Of a stretch of 64,000 nucleotides of DNA, positions 11,738-22,516 are shown in pieces. Source of the stretch: an uncultured Verrucomicrobiota bacterium (GTDB lineage Bacteria > Verrucomicrobiota > Verrucomicrobiia > Opitutales > Seribacteraceae); contig CACMBV010000008.1 in assembly GCA_902612125.1 (NCBI GenBank), positions 1 through 64,000 of the forward strand, given 5' to 3'. A program made the translations under genes and the position numbers. Numbering within the stretch: the stretch's first letter is position 1; every line of letters begins with the position of its first letter. The notes beneath the pieces are model-generated. The model worked only from the letters and a program-made list of their open reading frames with translations. It was not told where the DNA came from and did not search any database.

Positions 11738-13606
11738 TTAATCTAGCCGGGTAATGCTGTCCAAGAAATCAGAAAATAGATGAATGCCGCCAAGCTCCGT
11801 TCTAGCCCTTTTACAAATTTCTGATTGAACCAGGGAAGTGCTCTCAGCCAGGAATAGAATGTATTCCGCAACTCTTTTAGCATAGAGCAAGCGTCCTTCC
11901 TCACTGATGGCATAAAATCTTTGCCTTTGCTTATAGCCGGCGGCAGAATGATCACCGAGGACCTCCTTATCCGTAGCCCCCCCCTTCGCCAATACATAAA
12001 GGAAATTATACTCAAACCAGAAAAAATGATCGGGACTGGGTTCCAAGCGTTGAAGAAGGGAACGGCAATCCTCAAGACTCGAAAATGCTTTTTCAGCTGA
12101 TGCCTCATCCAGGGTTAAACTGACAAACGCACGAGCCATTTTCCTCTCGGTCGGATCCTCAGCAAAGCAGCCATTAGTTGTAAGCTCGACGGTAAAATTA
12201 TGCCAGTCATGCCAGAGCTTCTGATCGTACGAATCTGTCGAATGGTAAAGGGCTACGCCCATCTCATAAGTATACCGGCCGCTGGTTTTAATTTCGAGAT
12301 TACCACGGGTTACCTCCCCTGCGACTTGATAATTTTCGGCAGACTTTCCGGACCCCGAATGAAAGCCAATGGAAACCCCAAACTTTTCGCAAATATTCCA
12401 AATCGGTTTAATCATTTCACGAAGTTTTTGGTTATCCGGATACGGAATATTTTTCTGAAAACCAAAAGCGGGTGCCACAAAATGAATGGGCATATCCATT
12501 GCAAACGACAAGGCCAACATTACTGCGGTCGTTTCAGGAGTGGTCAGACCGGGCAGTTCATCAATTGACAACTCCCTGAGATATTCCCTTCCCTGCTCGA
12601 TGGTAAAATAATCTTCACGAATTTTTCGGTATTTCTCGTCACGGGCTTTCATTTTGACCATGGCTGGCCAGACATAGGAAAGTAATCCGTTGAATTCTTC
12701 CTCCGTCGGGGTAAGACCCGCTGCTTCCACTCGTTTTCTGGTTGCTTCCACGAGGTCAGCGGGAATTTCATTCCTGACAAACTCTTCTTTACCGCTGGCG
12801 TAATCGGGAACCTCGGTAATGGCCAACTCGGGAGACAAATCGAAAGTAATATAACTGGCAAAAAGGCAACCTTTCACCAATTGGTCTTCCCTTACATCGA
12901 ACTTCCCGCCAATCGGTTGATGGTCGGCATTAAAACTCCAGGGAATCCCGAGTGTATGAAAACCATTTTTTAATTTGGCCAAGATGCAACCATGACTCAT
13001 GCCCTCAACACTCTGCCCCTGATGCCCTTCCGGAACATCACAACCGATAAATGGGAAGGGTACGGAATCCAGCTTGTCAGCCAGCATCGCATCCACATCG
13101 TAGACCAGTTCGCGCGGAATACTGTTTTGATTCGCGGTAAGGCCAATCCCCAGTCGACTCATAGCCCAGTCCACGCCATCCCAATGCAATGTGGTGAATC
13201 GTGCCCCAATTCCAAGGGTTGATTTCCCAAGTTGTTCACTTGTTCGGGGGAATACTGTGCAGGATGAATCATTTTCCATCATCAGATTTTTCATTCCGAT
13301 CAGATTGGAATAAGTGGCGGGGAAATATCGTTTACCCTGAATTTCCACGCCCTGACTCAGGCATTGAATACCGGAAGCATGGCACTTTCCAAGAACTTCC
13401 CATGCATGATCACCCTGCGCATTTTCAACCAGATAAAAGTCCGCGTCTGCAATGGAAAATTTACTTTTGGTATGTTGTTTGTAATCTCCAGATTTGATCG
13501 AAGCTTTTAATTCCTCCCAATCCAGGCAAAAATCAGGACTAATACAGGGATTGTCGGAGATTCGAAGTTCATTGAAAACAAGAAATTGATTAATCGGAGA
13601 AAGCAT
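11738..13606 (-). CDS. Tagaturonate epimerase (UxaE) family protein
   Basis: The 622-residue protein resembles the UxaE family, which epimerises D-tagaturonate and D-fructuronate in galacturonate breakdown. The supporting motifs are GIPWSFNADHQPIGGKFD, a TADH-like metal and substrate region; VSIGFHSGSGKSAENYQVAG, where the HSGS-K motif is characteristic; and LEIKTSGRYTYEMGVALY. It is longer than the ~480-residue bacterial UxaE, with extra sequence at the N-terminus. It is the last gene of the sugar ABC-transporter operon, 32 bases after the permease, which fits a role in processing an imported uronic acid or related sugar. The reaction and substrate of this longer variant are inferred. Confidence 0.6.
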   Translation of the reverse strand: MLSPINQFLVFNELRISDNPCISPDFCLDWEELKASIKSGDYKQHTKSKFSIADADFYLVENAQGDHAWEVLGKCHASGIQCLSQGVEIQGKRYFPATYSNLIGMKNLMMENDSSCTVFPRTSEQLGKSTLGIGARFTTLHWDGVDWAMSRLGIGLTANQNSIPRELVYDVDAMLADKLDSVPFPFIGCDVPEGHQGQSVEGMSHGCILAKLKNGFHTLGIPWSFNADHQPIGGKFDVREDQLVKGCLFASYITFDLSPELAITEVPDYASGKEEFVRNEIPADLVEATRKRVEAAGLTPTEEEFNGLLSYVWPAMVKMKARDEKYRKIREDYFTIEQGREYLRELSIDELPGLTTPETTAVMLALSFAMDMPIHFVAPAFGFQKNIPYPDNQKLREMIKPIWNICEKFGVSIGFHSGSGKSAENYQVAGEVTRGNLEIKTSGRYTYEMGVALYHSTDSYDQKLWHDWHNFTVELTTNGCFAEDPTERKMARAFVSLTLDEASAEKAFSSLEDCRSLLQRLEPSPDHFFWFEYNFLYVLAKGGATDKEVLGDHSAAGYKQRQRFYAISEEGRLLYAKRVAEYILFLAESTSLVQSEICKRARTELGGIHLFSDFLDSITRLD

Positions 13607-13638: not shown

Positions 13639-14643
13639 TTATCTAGCAGCGAGCTGTTTCTTGGCCATGGTCTTTTTTAGCACTTCATCGCCGATCACAC
13701 CCAACAAAATAACCATTCCTAAAATGCCGAACTCCAAGTGAGTCGAAATTCCGACCATATTAATCGAATTATAAATCATTCGAATCACCGCAGCTGCGAT
13801 TACAACACCCAATATTGAACCTTCTCCACCCCTCAAACTGCAACCGCCCAGAACCGCTGCGGCAATTGCATAAAGTTCATAGAACTCACCCGTTTGGGCA
13901 GGCTGAACTGAACCCAATTCAAAAGCAAAGAGAATACCCGCAATTCCTGCTAAAAGTGAGCAGACCATATAAGCGACTATTTTCATCCTGTCTGTATCAA
14001 TTCCGCTGTAACGGGCTCCTTCTTCATTGTTTCCCAAAGCATAAAGATAACGGCCCCAGATAGTTCGACGAAGGAAAACCCCGGCTCCTATTGCCACCAC
14101 AAGCATGAACAGCAAGGGGGTTGGTAGATTAAACGATTCACCAATCGGAATTTTCCCACTGAAAATAAAATCCAATCCCATAATTTGGTCAATATTTTGG
14201 TATCCTTTATCTCCTTCGAGAGGAACGGGACCAAGCGATTGATTATCCGTCAACCAACGTCCAAGGCTCCTGTAAATAAGCAATCCACATAGGGTAACGA
14301 CAAAAGGTTGAAGCTTCGCCTTAGTGATCAACAAACCGTGAATGAGCCCGATCACCACTGACATGAGGAGGGTCAATCCAATGGCAAGGGTCGGATCAAT
14401 TCCCTGTATTTTGGTAAAAAAGGCTAAAACCACCGCCACTAACCCCACTACCGAACCAATTGATAGATCAATTCCTCCGGTAATGATCACAAAGGCAACC
14501 CCAATGCTCATCACCCCATACAAGCTCGACCATTTCAGCAAGTTCTGCATGTTGTAAGCATTCAGAAATTTTGGATTAATCAGAGCGGTTAAAACAAAGA
14601 TCACCACAAGCAAGGCGGCAATTCCAAGAACATTCTTTTTCAT
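13639..14643 (-). CDS. Sugar ABC transporter permease (RbsC family)
   Basis: The 334-residue membrane protein has about eight to ten hydrophobic segments, beginning ALLVVIFVLTALINPKFLN, and the ribose-type permease signatures ITGGIDLSIGSVVGLVAVV and GRYLYALGNNEEGARYSGI, then AAAVLGGCSLRGGEGSILG. It forms the transmembrane channel for the neighbouring RbsA-type ATPase, starting 9 bases after that gene stops. The sugar carried is unknown. The UxaE-like epimerase and SDR in the same operon suggest a sugar acid or an unusual aldose or ketose. Confidence 0.9.
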   Translation of the reverse strand: MKKNVLGIAALLVVIFVLTALINPKFLNAYNMQNLLKWSSLYGVMSIGVAFVIITGGIDLSIGSVVGLVAVVLAFFTKIQGIDPTLAIGLTLLMSVVIGLIHGLLITKAKLQPFVVTLCGLLIYRSLGRWLTDNQSLGPVPLEGDKGYQNIDQIMGLDFIFSGKIPIGESFNLPTPLLFMLVVAIGAGVFLRRTIWGRYLYALGNNEEGARYSGIDTDRMKIVAYMVCSLLAGIAGILFAFELGSVQPAQTGEFYELYAIAAAVLGGCSLRGGEGSILGVVIAAAVIRMIYNSINMVGISTHLEFGILGMVILLGVIGDEVLKKTMAKKQLAAR

Positions 14644-14652
14644 AATTTACTT

Positions 14653-16164
14653 TCAGGCAGCGGCTTTACTGGCACCGGTTGCTAGGTTCATAACTGATTC
14701 CTCCGACAGTTCATCCCGTGATAACTCACCGGCAATCCTACCTTCGTGCATCACATAGGCTCGGTCAGCCATACCCAGGATTTCCTCCATTTCACTGGAT
14801 ACAAAAAGGATCGCCATTCCTTCCTCCGCCAGTTTTTCCATCAGTTTATAAATTTCACGCTTTGCCCCGATATCTATTCCCCTGGTTGGCTCATCCAGCA
14901 TCAGTAACTTAGGCTTCATGGCCAGCCATTTGCCCAAGACAATCTTTTGTTGGTTGCCACCCGAAAGAAATCTTGCCACCTGCTCAATATTAGGAGTCTT
15001 AATGCTCATTTGTTTAACCGCATTATCGGTTAATTTTACTTCCTTCAGGCTGTCCAGGAAGCCTTTTTTCTGATCCCTTTCCAGACTCGGTAAGCTGGAA
15101 TTTTCCCTTACGGTCATAGGTAAAATAAGACCATGCTGCTTTCGATCCTCAGGAGCCAGGGCAATCCCTCTCTTAATTGCATCCTTGGAGGAGAAAGGAT
15201 GATAATCTGCGTCTTCCAGTTCCATCTCACCATTCACGGCGGGGGTTATTCCAAAAATTGTCTGCAGAAGTTCGGTCCTCCCTGCCCCCACAAGACCTGC
15301 TACTCCGACAATCTCACCAGAACGAATTTCGAAATCAAGAGGAAACTCCGGATAAGCCGGCGAAATGAGTTTCTTGGCCCGCAGTACCACCTTGCCCGGG
15401 GGATGAACCTTGCGGTTGTAGAACTCGCTTAATTCCCTTCCGACCATCAAGCGAACCATATTCCCATGATTGATATCTTCCTGGTCCAAGTCGCCCGCAT
15501 TTTCCCCATCGCGGAAAACCGTAACCCGGTCAGACAATTCAATCACTTCACCCAAACGGTGAGAGATGTAAATTACGCTTATACCCTGGCTTCTTAACTC
15601 TTTGACCACCTCGAAAAGGGTTTCCGTTTCTTTCTGGGACAAACTACTGGTTGGCTCATCCATAATCAGGACACGTGCGTCACATGACAAGGCTTTTGCG
15701 ATTTCAACAAGCTGTTGTTTTCCAATGGGCAGAGAGCCTGTAATTGTTTCCAATGGAAGATCCAGCCCGACCCGTTGCAAATATTTCGACGCTTCCTCCC
15801 GCAATTTATTTTCTTGGACGAACCCCTTCTTCTGGGGTTCACGGCCGAGGAAAATATTGGCAGCCAAATCGAGATTGGATGCAAGATTAAGTTCCTGATG
15901 AATCAATGCAATGCCCCGGTTCATGGCATCCCTCACATTCTGAAAGTTCGCCGGTTCACCGTCGACTAAGTATTCTCCACTGCTCGCAGATTGCACACCG
16001 GCAAGAATTTTCATCAATGTGCTTTTTCCAGCCCCATTTTCTCCGATAAGGGATAGCACTTCTCCTTTTTTCAGCGACAACGACACCCCGCGAAGAGCAA
16101 GCACCCCAGGGAAACTTTTGGTTAAATTACTTACCTGAAGTAATGGTGGGGTGGAATCCAGCAT
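14653..16164 (-). CDS. Sugar ABC transporter ATP-binding protein (RbsA/MglA family)
   Basis: The 503-residue protein contains two fused ABC ATPase domains, as usual for the CUT2 family. The first has the Walker A motif GENGAGKSTLMKILAG and Walker B RVLIMDEPTSSLS. The second has a degenerate Walker A (GLVGAGRTELLQTIFG) and the signature LSGGNQQKIVLGKWL followed by LLMLDEPTRGIDIG. It energises import through the adjacent permease. Its ATG at 16164 directly abuts the TAG of the binding-protein gene, which argues for translational coupling within one operon. Confidence 0.93.
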   Translation of the reverse strand: MLDSTPPLLQVSNLTKSFPGVLALRGVSLSLKKGEVLSLIGENGAGKSTLMKILAGVQSASSGEYLVDGEPANFQNVRDAMNRGIALIHQELNLASNLDLAANIFLGREPQKKGFVQENKLREEASKYLQRVGLDLPLETITGSLPIGKQQLVEIAKALSCDARVLIMDEPTSSLSQKETETLFEVVKELRSQGISVIYISHRLGEVIELSDRVTVFRDGENAGDLDQEDINHGNMVRLMVGRELSEFYNRKVHPPGKVVLRAKKLISPAYPEFPLDFEIRSGEIVGVAGLVGAGRTELLQTIFGITPAVNGEMELEDADYHPFSSKDAIKRGIALAPEDRKQHGLILPMTVRENSSLPSLERDQKKGFLDSLKEVKLTDNAVKQMSIKTPNIEQVARFLSGGNQQKIVLGKWLAMKPKLLMLDEPTRGIDIGAKREIYKLMEKLAEEGMAILFVSSEMEEILGMADRAYVMHEGRIAGELSRDELSEESVMNLATGASKAAA

Positions 16165-17220
16165 CTATTGAGTTTTTCCAAGTTCCGCCATTTCTTTCTT
16201 TTTAGCCCAGAATCCATCGACATTATCCTTCGTTACCAGAAGGAAGGATGTTTCGGAATAACCCTTGGTTTCAGAGCCAAGATTTTTCACGGGGCGTTCA
16301 AGTAGTTCATCGATCACCCCCTGCCGCCGTTGGCGGGCATTGAGTTGCTCCAATCGGCCAACAAACAAAACCACTTCCCCACCTTCAGGTACTGCCTTTT
16401 TGACCAACTTACCAAGAGCTCTCCCTGCTTTGTAATTATTCGTGCCAATAAAGGCCAGACGCTTACTGTCGGGAGCATCCGAATCATTGGTGATCAGAAT
16501 GGTATTCTCTGCCACTTCATTAAGGAAAGGAGTTTGGTTTTCCGCATCCACAGGACTTACCGCTATGCCGTCTACCGCGTTTGCAAGCAGAGTCTCCATC
16601 ATTCTCTTCTGGTCAACCACACCCTTGGGCGGCATCAAAACTTCGCATGAAATACCGAACTCTTTTTCTGCAATCCTTACTCCCGCTGCGCAAAGATCCC
16701 AAAACGGATCCACTCCATTGGTTACATATGCAAAGGAGGTTGAAGGACTTACCTCGTTCCCTTGTGCTTCATATAATTCCTTCAGTTTTTTGATAGACTG
16801 ATATCCATACTCCCAAGGCTGTTGACTGACGGTTCCGTAAGCATGTCCCTGCCCTATTGCCTCAAGCAAAGCGTCCTGCTCATCAAACCCGCACACTTTA
16901 ATTTGCTTCAATTTGTCGGCTTCTTTGATTGCATCAATGCAAGAGGGAGAATTGTAGGCAAATAATCCAACCATGCATTGTAAATCCTTGAATTTAGTGA
17001 TTGCATCCTCCGCGTTACTTTTCGCCTTGGCCTTGTCAAAGTTATCCGTTCTGGTTTCCAAGATGATATATTTGGAACTCTCACTGGTCAGGTTTACTAC
17101 ATCCACGGGATCATAATCCTTGTTGCCTCCATCTCCTGAATCAGGGGAAGAACCTCCTGAACAAGCAAAAAGAAATGCTGTAATTAAAAAAAGTGGAATT
17201 TGGTTTATTTTATTCTTCAT
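16165..17220 (-). CDS. Sugar-binding lipoprotein of the Rbs-type ABC transporter, with permuted domain order
   Basis: The protein should capture a sugar in the periplasm for the RbsA/RbsC-type transporter. Starting at ATG 17220 (a longer frame to 17289 lacks a credible signal), it has a lipoprotein signal ending LFAC at Cys20 and a Gly/Ser/Asp-rich linker. The remainder is a type I periplasmic binding fold with its blocks rearranged. The part normally in the second half (KYIILETRTDNFDKAKAK, FDEQDALLEAIGQGHAYGTV, EYGYQSIKKL; residues ~48-157) comes first. The normal N-terminal half (SFAYVTNGVDPFWD through NARQRRQGVIDELL; residues ~160-309) comes second. The normal C-terminal tail (FLLVTKDNVDGFWAKKK; ~310-351) is last. 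All blocks are present once, in frame, and total length is ordinary. The transport role is well supported by the operon; the permutation is described in the findings. Confidence 0.85.
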   Translation of the reverse strand: MKNKINQIPLFLITAFLFACSGGSSPDSGDGGNKDYDPVDVVNLTSESSKYIILETRTDNFDKAKAKSNAEDAITKFKDLQCMVGLFAYNSPSCIDAIKEADKLKQIKVCGFDEQDALLEAIGQGHAYGTVSQQPWEYGYQSIKKLKELYEAQGNEVSPSTSFAYVTNGVDPFWDLCAAGVRIAEKEFGISCEVLMPPKGVVDQKRMMETLLANAVDGIAVSPVDAENQTPFLNEVAENTILITNDSDAPDSKRLAFIGTNNYKAGRALGKLVKKAVPEGGEVVLFVGRLEQLNARQRRQGVIDELLERPVKNLGSETKGYSETSFLLVTKDNVDGFWAKKKEMAELGKTQ

Positions 17221-17258: not shown

Positions 17259-18014
17259 TTACCACGGTGTACGCCCACCATTCACGCATAAAGTTTGCCC
17301 GGTGACAAAAGATGCCTCGTCTGAAGAGTAAAAAACGACCGCATTGCCCACATCTTCAGGAGTACCCCAGCGACCGAGAGGTATGGTTTGAAGGTACTCA
17401 TCCCTGACATTCTGAGGATCATTCATATGACGCTCGGTCGGTATCCAACCCGGAGCAACTGTGTTTACGGTAATTCCAAAAGGACCCAACTCCTTAGCCA
17501 TACTTCGGCTCCAACCAATTTGCCCACCCTTGGCTGCAACATAAGCACTAAATTCCGGAACACTGCAGTGAAAAACCTCACTGGTAATGTTGATAATTCT
17601 ACCCTTTTTCCTTTTTTTCATACCTGGAAGCACTGCCAGAGCCAGCCTAAAGGGGCTCATCACAAAATAGTCGTACATTAGGCGGTAAAAATCGGCGTCA
17701 TATTCTTCTATTGGCTTCTGCGGCTGATCTGGAGTGGCATTCGGAACCAGAATATCAAGGGAACCAAACTTCTCTTCAATCGCTTCAACCATTGAATTAA
17801 TTTGATCCGTATCCGAAGCATCCGCCCGAAACATTGTGGCATGAATACCTCCGTTTCGAAGATCCTGTAGAGTCTTTTGAGCAGATTCCGGATTGTTCAG
17901 ATAATTCAAACAAACCTTGGCTCCTGCTTTGCCGAGAGAAAGTGCTATCCCGCGACCAAGACCGCGGCTACTTCCAGTGACAAGTGCAACTTTATTGGTT
18001 AATGAAAAGGGCAT
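17259..18014 (-). CDS. Short-chain dehydrogenase/reductase (FabG-like, classical SDR)
   Basis: The 251-residue enzyme has the NAD(P)-binding motif TGSSRGLGRG at residues 13-22, the NxT-type strand LVPNATPDQ in place of the usual NNAG, the catalytic serine region INITSEVFHCS, the YxxxK motif AYVAAKGG, and the C-terminal GQTLCVNGGRTPW. It should oxidise or reduce a hydroxyl group of a small substrate. As the first gene of the sugar-transport operon, it most likely acts on the imported sugar, a lactone precursor or a polyol. The exact substrate is unknown. A palindromic operator candidate lies 67-86 bases upstream of the ATG. Confidence 0.88.
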   Translation of the reverse strand: MPFSLTNKVALVTGSSRGLGRGIALSLGKAGAKVCLNYLNNPESAQKTLQDLRNGGIHATMFRADASDTDQINSMVEAIEEKFGSLDILVPNATPDQPQKPIEEYDADFYRLMYDYFVMSPFRLALAVLPGMKKRKKGRIINITSEVFHCSVPEFSAYVAAKGGQIGWSRSMAKELGPFGITVNTVAPGWIPTERHMNDPQNVRDEYLQTIPLGRWGTPEDVGNAVVFYSSDEASFVTGQTLCVNGGRTPW

Positions 18015-18497: not shown

Positions 18498-19373
18498 TCA
18501 TCCAAGATAGGCAAATGGCCTGACTCCCCGCACCCCCATGCCGTCGACCACAAATACCCTTCCGGCATTCTCCTCTTCTACGGACTTATGGATACCCGTG
18601 GTTACGAATAGGCGATCGAATTCATTCCCACCAAAAGCACAAGCAGTAGTTTCGATACAGGGAAACTTAATTTCCTGAACTACTTTTTGAGCTTCAGGAT
18701 TGATTCTTGCCACCAAGCCACCATGGCACATAGCCACCCATAGCATTCCATCCGCATCAATAGTCATGCCATCGGGAGAGCCTTCCAAGCCAGCGTCTTC
18801 GGTATTGAGCACCACCCGTCTTTCCCCCAGTTCCCCCGAATCATTATTGAAAGGAAACCCCCAAATTTCTTTCGTCGGAGTATCGATGTAATACATTCTG
18901 TCGGCCTGATCGTTCCAGCATAACCCGTTGGAATTGGTAACTCCGAAAACTTTCAAACTCAACTTTCCTAATGTATTGAGCATATAAAGATTGGCATCAC
19001 CCGTCTTTTTGACGGTGCTGATTGTACCCGCCCAGAAACGGCCCTTGGGGTCGCATTTCCCGTCATTAAAACGATTATCCGGCCGTTTATCTGCTTCAGG
19101 ATCCGCTAGTATTTTTTTCTCCTCCTTGACTGGATCAAAGGAATAAATTCCGGAATCTCCCGCACAAATGTATCCGCCTGATTCTCGGGGAACCACAGTT
19201 CCAATCCGTTCCCTCATATCCCAAACTTTTTCTGCACCGGTATCAGAATTTAGACGGATCAGGGCATGCCCTTCAATATCAACATAAAGAAGATGCTCGT
19301 TCCAAAAGATTGGTCCTTCCCCCCATTTGGAAATATGTGATCCCAGAGGGTTGATCGATATGCTTTCGCTCAT
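18498..19373 (-). CDS. SMP-30/gluconolactonase/LRE family protein
   Basis: The 291-residue protein is a six-bladed beta-propeller lactonase. Metal-ligand regions typical of the family are visible: WGEGPIFWNEHLLYVDIEG near the N-terminus, DNRFNDGKCDPKGRFWAGT, SNGLCWNDQADRMYYIDT, and GSPDGMTIDADGMLWVAMC. It is predicted to hydrolyse an aldonolactone to the open acid using a divalent metal, a step that commonly follows sugar oxidation by an SDR or similar dehydrogenase. There is no signal peptide, so it should act in the cytoplasm. It lies downstream of a dead SGNH hydrolase gene and the esterase/sulfatase run. The substrate is inferred from context only. Confidence 0.88.
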   Translation of the reverse strand: MSESISINPLGSHISKWGEGPIFWNEHLLYVDIEGHALIRLNSDTGAEKVWDMRERIGTVVPRESGGYICAGDSGIYSFDPVKEEKKILADPEADKRPDNRFNDGKCDPKGRFWAGTISTVKKTGDANLYMLNTLGKLSLKVFGVTNSNGLCWNDQADRMYYIDTPTKEIWGFPFNNDSGELGERRVVLNTEDAGLEGSPDGMTIDADGMLWVAMCHGGLVARINPEAQKVVQEIKFPCIETTACAFGGNEFDRLFVTTGIHKSVEEENAGRVFVVDGMGVRGVRPFAYLG

Positions 19374-20998: not shown

Positions 20999-22516
20999 TC
21001 AATTCGATACATTCGCCCCGATCTCCGAGGCCATCTCGATCCACTTTTTTTTCATCGAATTAGTTCTGTCCGGAAATTGCAAAGCCAAATCCTTGGTTTC
21101 CGTTCGATCCTTGCTCAAATCATATAGTTGCCATGGTTCTTTTTTCCGCTTAACCAACTTCCATTGGTCCTGACGGATTGCCTGCCAAGACCCAAATTGA
21201 AAAAATAAGGGATCATCCCGAAGTAATTTTTTTCCGGAAAAAGTGGATGTAAGGCTGATGCCATCCAACTTCGGAAGATCGTTAGGATACTCTGCCTGCT
21301 TTCCCGCTAATTCCATGAAAGTAGGAAGGACATCAATTAAGTGGCAGGGGTCTCTTGCAATGGAATTCTTCGATAGTTGGATTCCTTCTGGCCAATGAGC
21401 AATCATAGGCGTGCAGATTCCACCCTCCATGCTTTGAATCTTCCACTTCTTAAACGGGCTGTTAACCGCATTTGCCCATGACTGTCCAATCGCCTCGAAG
21501 GAACCCACGCTTCCCCATTCTGAGTTCGGATTTTTATATCCTCGTTTGGGCTTCTCCGGACTGGCTCCATTATCAACCAGAAAAAGAATTAGGGTGTTTT
21601 CCAATTTTTGAAGTTCTTCAAGCCTGCCAATAAGCCGGCCGATATTCTGGTCCAAACGGTCCACCATTGCGGCATGAATCTGCATTCGAAGAGCCTCGTC
21701 TTTTCTCTCCTTCTCTGACAATTCTGACCAAGGTGTATGGTCTGCTTCGCTTAAAGGAGTAACCTTCTCATCAAACAATCCCAGGTTAATCTGCTTACGA
21801 TACCTTGAATTACGAATGGCTTCGTATCCCTGATCATACACTCCGTCATACTTCCTTATATCCTCAATATGTGCGTGCAGAGGCCAATGGGGGGCATTAT
21901 ATGAGAGGAATAAGAAGAAAGGCTTAGCGAAAACTTGATCCTCTTCGAGCCACTCAAGGCTCCAATCAGTGAAGGTATCGGTGGCAAAAAATTCCGTTGT
22001 GGGATTGTAGGGTTTGATCACCTTATCATCAAAAGCCCAGGAATACACCGCACGCCAACCCGGCTCGTCCTCCCCTTCTCTGGCACGATCTCCTGGATTC
22101 CAAAAATTTATGGCTCCTCCAAGAAATCCTGAAAAATGATCAAATCCACGATCGTAAGGATTAAAGTCAGCATGATGCTTTCCTGTCCACCATGTATGAT
22201 AGTCCGCAGGCTTTAGCACTTCTCCCACTAGGGCGGTATTCATAAAGTTACGATCGCTCCGATGATGGTACAAACCGGTGAGCAAACTAATGCGTGTGGT
22301 CCAGCACTTCGAGGTGTTATAAGCCTGGGTGTATCGAAGCCCATTTTCAGCCAAACGGTCCAGGTTGGGCGTTTTTATCTCACCTCCATAACAACCTAGA
22401 TCAGAGTAACCCATATCATCGGCCAAAATAAGGATGAAGTTTGGCCTTTCTTCTCCATCCAATAATTTCGCAACTGAGAGAAGTGAAATTACAAAGAAAC
22501 CGTAAAAAGATCTCAT
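20999..22516 (-). CDS. Arylsulfatase-family sulfatase with unusual CxTxR motif
   Basis: The 505-residue exported enzyme has a signal peptide (FVISLLSVAKLLDG) and the sulfatase N-terminal metal motif ILILADDMGYSDLGCYGGE. The formylglycine site reads SKCWTTRISLLTGLY, so the residue two after cysteine is threonine, where most family members have proline or alanine. Later motifs include TWWTGKHHADFNPYDRGFD and LILFLVDNGASPEKPKRG. The role would be to remove sulfate esters from glycans in the periplasm or outside the cell. It overlaps the preceding sulfatase gene by four bases (ATGA), so the two are co-translated. Whether the atypical site is converted to formylglycine cannot be seen. Confidence 0.88.
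   Translation of the reverse strand: MRSFYGFFVISLLSVAKLLDGEERPNFILILADDMGYSDLGCYGGEIKTPNLDRLAENGLRYTQAYNTSKCWTTRISLLTGLYHHRSDRNFMNTALVGEVLKPADYHTWWTGKHHADFNPYDRGFDHFSGFLGGAINFWNPGDRAREGEDEPGWRAVYSWAFDDKVIKPYNPTTEFFATDTFTDWSLEWLEEDQVFAKPFFLFLSYNAPHWPLHAHIEDIRKYDGVYDQGYEAIRNSRYRKQINLGLFDEKVTPLSEADHTPWSELSEKERKDEALRMQIHAAMVDRLDQNIGRLIGRLEELQKLENTLILFLVDNGASPEKPKRGYKNPNSEWGSVGSFEAIGQSWANAVNSPFKKWKIQSMEGGICTPMIAHWPEGIQLSKNSIARDPCHLIDVLPTFMELAGKQAEYPNDLPKLDGISLTSTFSGKKLLRDDPLFFQFGSWQAIRQDQWKLVKRKKEPWQLYDLSKDRTETKDLALQFPDRTNSMKKKWIEMASEIGANVSN

Follow-up and report, generated by a model that had tools for sequence, protein, structure and literature searches.

The window analysed here is a stretch of 64,000 nucleotides from an uncultured marine bacterium of the Verrucomicrobiota (Opitutales, Seribacteraceae; assembly GCA_902612125.1, contig CACMBV010000008.1, here G000), whose genome is 63.8% complete, shows 0.06% contamination and is distributed over 84 contigs. 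The gene at 16165-17220 of the minus strand encodes a lipoprotein-type sugar-binding protein of 351 amino acids in an open frame without stop. Its presumed lipidation site is Cys20 (lipobox judged by eye). All neighbours in the operon are located on the same strand and the operon looks intact (Table 1). Binding protein, double ATPase and BPD_transp_2 permease are encoded together, as is typical for CUT2-type monosaccharide ABC importers. Because the gene sits among genes for an SDR-type dehydrogenase, an ABC importer and a tagaturonate-epimerase-like enzyme, the protein is predicted to capture a sugar or sugar acid as the substrate-binding component of such an importer. None of the NCBIfam sugar-binding equivalogs (RbsB, D-allose, RhaS, XylF etc.) scored above its cut-off (best value 49.6 bits versus 335). 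The canonical relative L007 likewise remained below it (56.7 versus 335), so the unusual architecture described below is not the cause of this failure. Upstream of the operon a gluconolactonase/SMP-30-like gene (18498-19373, minus strand; Pfam PF08450) and a sulfatase-like frame (20999-22516, minus strand; assigned by eye) are found, a putative gene content in keeping with the use of polysaccharides or sugar acids.

Table 1. Segments of the permuted binding protein and neighbouring genes of its operon (positions within the window)
Feature	Position	Strand	Basis
Lipoprotein signal peptide and linker (S), residues 1-35	17116..17220	-	translation; like signal/linker of canonical relatives
Block B, residues 36-152; canonically second, here first	16765..17115	-	sits after A in relatives
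B|A linker junction, residues ~153-160	16741..16764	-	A side like signal-A linker of canonical L012 (by eye); coil in model
Block A, residues 161-314; canonically first, here second	16279..16740	-	identity to canonical relatives up to 91%
A|C linker junction, residues ~315-320	16261..16278	-	junction comparison; coil in model
Tail C, residues 321-351 plus stop; two short strands and helix; last in either order	16165..16260	-	tail match; model
SDR-type dehydrogenase, upstream neighbour	17259..18014	-	Pfam PF13561
Sugar ABC transporter ATPase, two ABC_tran stretches	14653..16164	-	PF00005; NCBIfam AraG/XylG/RbsA-like, below cut-off
ABC transporter permease (BPD_transp_2)	13639..14643	-	PF02653; ribose-permease-like, below cut-off
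Tagaturonate-epimerase-like enzyme, downstream neighbour	11738..13606	-	PF16257 UxaE, 33.6 bits vs cut-off 27.1

The protein is recognized by the Pfam profile PF13407 (Peripla_BP_4) with 161 bits against a gathering score of 35.1, in two separate stretches. Its chain does not follow the canonical A-B-C order of type I binding proteins of this family: the product reads signal-B-A-C, whereas close relatives read signal-A-B-C. Matching blocks in the order A-B-C are present in canonical proteins of the Rbs/CUT2 type such as 2h3h (glucose-binding protein of Thermotoga maritima) and Escherichia coli RbsB. The three resulting junctions lie near residues 35 (signal|B), 152-160 (B|A) and 315-320 (A|C); all of them are in frame and fall in linkers, i.e., in coil or ahead of the first strand in the structural model. 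In tblastn comparisons block B is 60-77% identical to the loci L002-L031 and L033 and less so to L032 and L036; within the genus the identity amounts to 75-81% in 16 members and to 44% in two. Tail C, where matched, shares 58-81% identity with canonical tails. In the assembly of 2.41 Mb this gene is the sole match at E of at most 0.001.

The distribution of block orders was followed among relatives at increasing distance. A scan of genome contigs yielded 35 loci, and tblastn was then run on 36 loci, with L001 being the window's own. Block A (query residues ~155-314) lies upstream of block B (~36-153) in 33 of the 36, and L034 and L035 yielded a single main block each. The tail (~321-351) matches separately in 30 of the 33 A-B loci and is always last. 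A profile-based tally of distinct ORF strings gave 75 with A-B, two with B-A (the window protein and L047), three with A-B-A-B, which stand for two genes, and five with a single block; strings cut differently from one gene may count twice in this tally. Both approaches confirm the permuted B-A-C order in an open frame that the preliminary description had claimed. Within the genus 20 of 27 genomes gave matches, 18 of them as two separate matches with A before B; the others are G000 itself and G005, with one single match that spans query residues 29-344 at 48% identity. At family level 33 of 42 genomes matched: two contain B-A-C, 28 the canonical order on one contig, G031 has A and B on separate contigs, and G020 and G039 contribute fragments at contig edges. 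Further B-A-C genes were not found in wider draws from the order (43 of 273 genomes matched), class (63 of 384) and phylum (14 of 387), i.e., there was no other match spanning both blocks. These draws overlap, include the genome of the window and were judged by eye, and many genomes gave block A alone at the chosen threshold, which is uninformative on order. Where both blocks on one contig were looked at (by eye, in part of the rows), A was upstream. Likewise, the phyla of G853 (38 of 68 genomes matched) and G854 (10 of 297) yielded no match over both blocks. Viral contigs revealed no relative, and in none of 49 plasmid records did one place cover more than 80% of the query. The search for homologues that share the B-A-C order, as the preliminary description had proposed, thus yielded one further full gene of this type, L047 in G005.

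Two long frames deserve mention as observations in their own right. L109 (723-4337, plus strand, G040:C58) and L110 (G058:C219) comprise 1204 and about 1036 amino acids, respectively, with two tandem binding-protein units each, and both read A-B-A-B by profile. The units of L109 look as if two different binding proteins had been fused (the first pair being weak), and the C-terminal region of this entry looks ankyrin-like by eye.

L047 belongs to the same genus as the window and occupies the same operon slot. The gene was also recorded as L108 (6754-7776, minus strand, in G005), and related entries are L106 in G020 and L107 in G039. In these fragments the end of A runs directly into C, with the contig edge leaving the A|C junction as the only one visible. 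The window protein and L047 are 47% identical and share the order of blocks as well as many invariant positions. Their junctions fall in the same three linkers: signal|B a little ahead of the first B strand, B|A immediately ahead of the first A strand, and A|C between the last helix of A and the tail strands. An SDR gene precedes the binding-protein gene in the window, in L047 and in the canonical locus L037. The cassette of G005 lies between this SDR gene (77% identical to that of the window) and the epimerase gene (73%; 69% in G039). The permeases of G005, G020 and G039 are 50-53% identical to that of the window and belong to another cassette, which is followed downstream by an epimerase gene of the same kind. 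It appears as if transporter cassettes had been exchanged inside a conserved catabolic operon. In the ATPase tree the protein of G039 is closest to that of L111 (G040:C50; support 88), a locus with a canonical binding protein of another group. Since these two ATPases pair, cassette histories are mixed and parts have been exchanged, hinting that binding-protein and ATPase genes were mixed as well.

The fold was predicted with AlphaFold2 without templates. For the window protein the alignment had 31 rows, namely the protein itself, L047, 14 B-only and 15 A-only fragments; these fragments were taken from 31 A and 31 B fragments of close relatives, the B ones being shortened and their last residue misplaced. 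The best model (pLDDT 86.4, pTM 0.85) starts with the elements of B, followed by those of A and finally by two short strands plus one helix; pLDDT of the five models lies between 86.4 and 75.1, with two near 75-76. The canonical control L007 reached pLDDT 90.4 and pTM 0.87 (five models from 90.4 to 85.4) and comprises the same kinds of elements in the order A-B-C. In a Foldseek search against the PDB the best match of the window model was 5ER3, a solute-binding protein from Rhodopirellula baltica SH 1 (317 columns, TMq 0.70, 4.5 Å). The other 49 matches listed had TMq 0.35-0.46 and covered either 151-186 columns, or 272-340 columns with an rmsd of at least 9.3 Å. All 50 matches listed for L007 covered 294-330 columns (TMq 0.61-0.77), among them the canonical 2h3h/3c6q with about 321 columns (TMq 0.73-0.77), and 5ER3 was not among them. 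AlphaFold2 was trained on the PDB and 5ER3 presumably predates this training; the window model is for this reason not independent of 5ER3, which may have helped to shape it. Most probably the permuted chain still forms a clam-shell of two lobes, as the predicted model suggests, and would hand over a sugar or sugar acid to the importer encoded just downstream. The preliminary description had argued that the rearranged chain could still fold, and the predicted structure (pTM 0.85) agrees with it at the level of a prediction. The idea that B-A-C needs only two cross-overs between the lobes was dropped, as both models keep the two short tail strands and the count may be two or four. In RBP the C-terminal elements are reported to make the second cross-over (PMC9815098).

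Phylogenetic reconstruction was performed for block A and block B with 75 rows each (73 of them different); proteins with more than six X, repeats of the same block pair and orders other than A-B or B-A were left out. In both trees the window sequence is placed within a canonical clade of 32 rows from marine Opitutales and Verrucomicrobiales (SH-aLRT 99), and L047 lies outside this clade among class-level canonical proteins, its exact place being poorly supported. The combined tree (76 rows, with 5ER3 among them) shows L047 in a group of 37 rows (98/89) that does not include the window protein, whose top identity over A+B in this set is 86%, to canonical L003. In the ATPase and permease trees the window's proteins likewise lie with canonical relatives and apart from those of G005, G020 and G039. 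A shared origin of the window protein and L047 was strongly rejected by the block trees and by the AU test (p 3.35e-67, at a cost of 144 log-likelihood units). A shared origin of the window protein with 5ER3 was also rejected (p 2e-4) and one of L047 with 5ER3 weakly (p 0.035); the tested pairs were chosen after the sequences had been seen, and the branch of 5ER3 is very long. The same B-A-C swap has probably arisen separately in the lineages of the window protein and L047, i.e., twice, and the simplest reading of these trees would be that two different transporters underwent it.

The B-A-C order of the window gene is very probably real. An artefact would require a true gene of A-B-C order and three mis-joins of the contig over a distance of 1 kb, or else a chimera formed during amplification should the assembly stem from a single cell. 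In favour of such an error are the draft state of the assembly (84 contigs, 63.8% complete) and the 18 matching genus members besides G000 and G005, which all show A-B. The window form itself is known from one genome and one assembly. Against this stands that no repeat of assembler k-mer size was found at the gene: it has no exact internal repeats of at least 11 bp and no 15-mers in common with the rest of the window, and among the matches listed the longest exact match elsewhere in G000 has 17 bp and the best inexact one 33 bp at 88%. Because shared words of this size are lacking and each of the three junctions keeps the frame and falls in a linker, a misjoin is unlikely. Since another genome of this genus contains a B-A-C gene of its own and the permuted chain is predicted to fold, we regard an artefact as very improbable. 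Of the two explanations offered by the preliminary description, natural segment swap or assembly error, the former is supported and the latter disfavoured by the second B-A-C gene of separate origin, the in-frame linker junctions, the predicted fold and the lack of a suitable repeat. Equally improbable in our view is a single B-A-C gene of ancient origin passed on to both lineages, with later blockwise overwriting of the window copy by gene conversion from canonical genes. The agreement of both proteins in order, three linkers and operon slot would be well explained by this, but block A, block B and tail of the window protein all resemble the canonical gene of the genus, as do ATPase and permease; the AU test speaks against common origin, and no second copy was found in G000 at its given completeness.

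Substitution rates were compared as well, of which only low dN was used because synonymous sites are saturated in most pairs. For the L047-type proteins of G005, G020 and G039 dN is 0.036-0.092 over a stretch of 84 residues that spans the A|C junction, with synonymous sites of this stretch saturated or near-saturated, and we infer that the joined A-C form is kept by selection in this lineage. The window protein shows dN of 0.07-0.12 (A) and 0.14-0.19 (B) to six canonical relatives, compared with 0.11-0.13 (A) and 0.09-0.11 (B) in two canonical-canonical comparisons; block B has thus evolved faster in the window lineage. Its end branches are long as well (0.11 for A and 0.20 for B versus medians of 0.04), and together with the higher dN of block B they could mean relaxed constraint. 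Long branches and raised dN would also suit a decaying pseudogene or a non-functional rearranged copy, but the branch of the ATPase is long, too (0.23), the frame is fully open, the neighbours are intact, it is the only copy found in the assembly, and the protein shares order and many invariant positions with L047 at 47% identity. Decay is therefore considered a highly improbable explanation.

With considerable confidence we interpret the protein as a real, naturally permuted Rbs-like type I sugar-binding lipoprotein, in which A and B have been swapped with signal peptide and tail C fixed, which likely folds and serves its importer, and whose swap is separate from that in L047. Starting from an ordinary A-B-C ancestor, blocks A and B would have changed places with signal peptide and tail staying where they were. 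Our guess for the route is a duplication followed by two deletions: a duplication within the gene would give A-B-A-B, by unequal exchange favoured by the likeness between the start of A and C, and subsequent loss of the first A and the last B would leave B-A-C. Permutation by duplication in this manner is described in a published report (PMC3320104). An A-B-A-B intermediate of this route was not found among the loci examined, as at least L109 of the two tandem frames looks like a fusion. Among the canonical proteins of the window's group, 23 of 29 show a resemblance between the first strand of A and the beginning of C with z of at least 3, and for 28 of the 29 the best match to the start of A elsewhere in the protein lies in C. 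In other canonical proteins the corresponding numbers are 7 of 43 and 33 of 43; rows with more than two X, a short tail or a cut start of A were left out of both counts. Judged from these sequences, the likeness goes back to the ancestor of the window's group. Its weakness in other canonical proteins, including the relatives of L047, speaks against a general cause. The preliminary description had seen a TSFxxVT...VDxFW pattern as a possible mediator of exchange. The likeness of A start and tail holds, canonical relatives also having it, but the mediator role does not gain from the 7 of 43 outside the window's group or from the lack of an exact repeat of at least 11 bp. We tentatively propose, as a possible though rather doubtful extension, that the fixed-tail B-A-C swap is recurrent in this lipoprotein family, was helped by the ancestral likeness of A start and C that allowed tandem duplication, and led to a hinge that was selected in tethered binding proteins.

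Most of the natural permutations described so far involve distant homologues, for which it is difficult to retrace the event. Here, the identity of up to 86% over A+B, the same upstream neighbour and the apparent double swap make the effects of rewiring testable, be it on folding and stability, on the binding of ligands or on the interplay with the importer, as well as the path via duplication and trimming. If the same swap occurred twice, the fold of this protein may have been rewired by nature more than once. Should the proposed recurrence hold, the window protein and its canonical relatives would represent a natural experiment on fold rewiring. There is also a practical aspect, since homology searches report B-A-C genes as two matches and curation could discard such genes as chimeras.

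Among known systems 5ER3 is a relative in sequence with B before A, as in the window protein. Its apparent order is B(29-131)-C(131-160)-A(182-332), with the tail after B and a weak C match of 3.8 bits, in contrast with B-A-C in the window, and seems to be a true circular permutation of a binding protein. Hence, three arrangements of the same parts seem to exist, namely A-B-C, B-A-C and B-C-A. Literature on the code 5ER3 comprised only unrelated papers among the matches listed. The second comparison is with TpMglB-2 (Tp0684), a glucose-binding, circularly permuted type I lipoprotein of solved structure with 26% identity to E. coli MglB over the shared part, for which the subclass "Type Ic / Cluster Bc" was proposed (PMC4990184). 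TpMglB-2 is a natural topological permutation that still binds sugar, and resembles the window protein in being a permuted type I lipoprotein; it differs in its cut, with the first three strands of the N-lobe near the C-terminus and with a fourth cross-over (PMC4990184). Type Ic stands for a cyclic rotation of the canonical order, and the window protein differs since its tail C is last and B-A-C is no rotation of A-B-C. Descent from these circularly permuted proteins, either of the Type Ic or of the 5ER3 kind, would fit 5ER3 being the best fold match among the matches listed and reading B then A. It appears extremely unlikely, as 5ER3 is apparently B-C-A (by its weak C match), the AU test rejects its grouping with the window protein and weakly that with L047, and the cut of TpMglB-2 lies elsewhere. 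Literature matches listed for a natural B-A-C swap, a fixed-tail swap between close homologues or permuted binding proteins in Verrucomicrobia contained none, in a search that covers subscription journals thinly. A possibly natural non-cyclic permutation was proposed for AML1/CBF versus riboflavin synthase from two solved structures, with structural similarity over 42 residues (PMC2096629), compared with 86% identity over A+B between the window protein and L003. Circularly permuted type I binding proteins are thus already known, and what is new here is a block swap with fixed tail in a protein so closely related (86% over A+B) to a canonical one.
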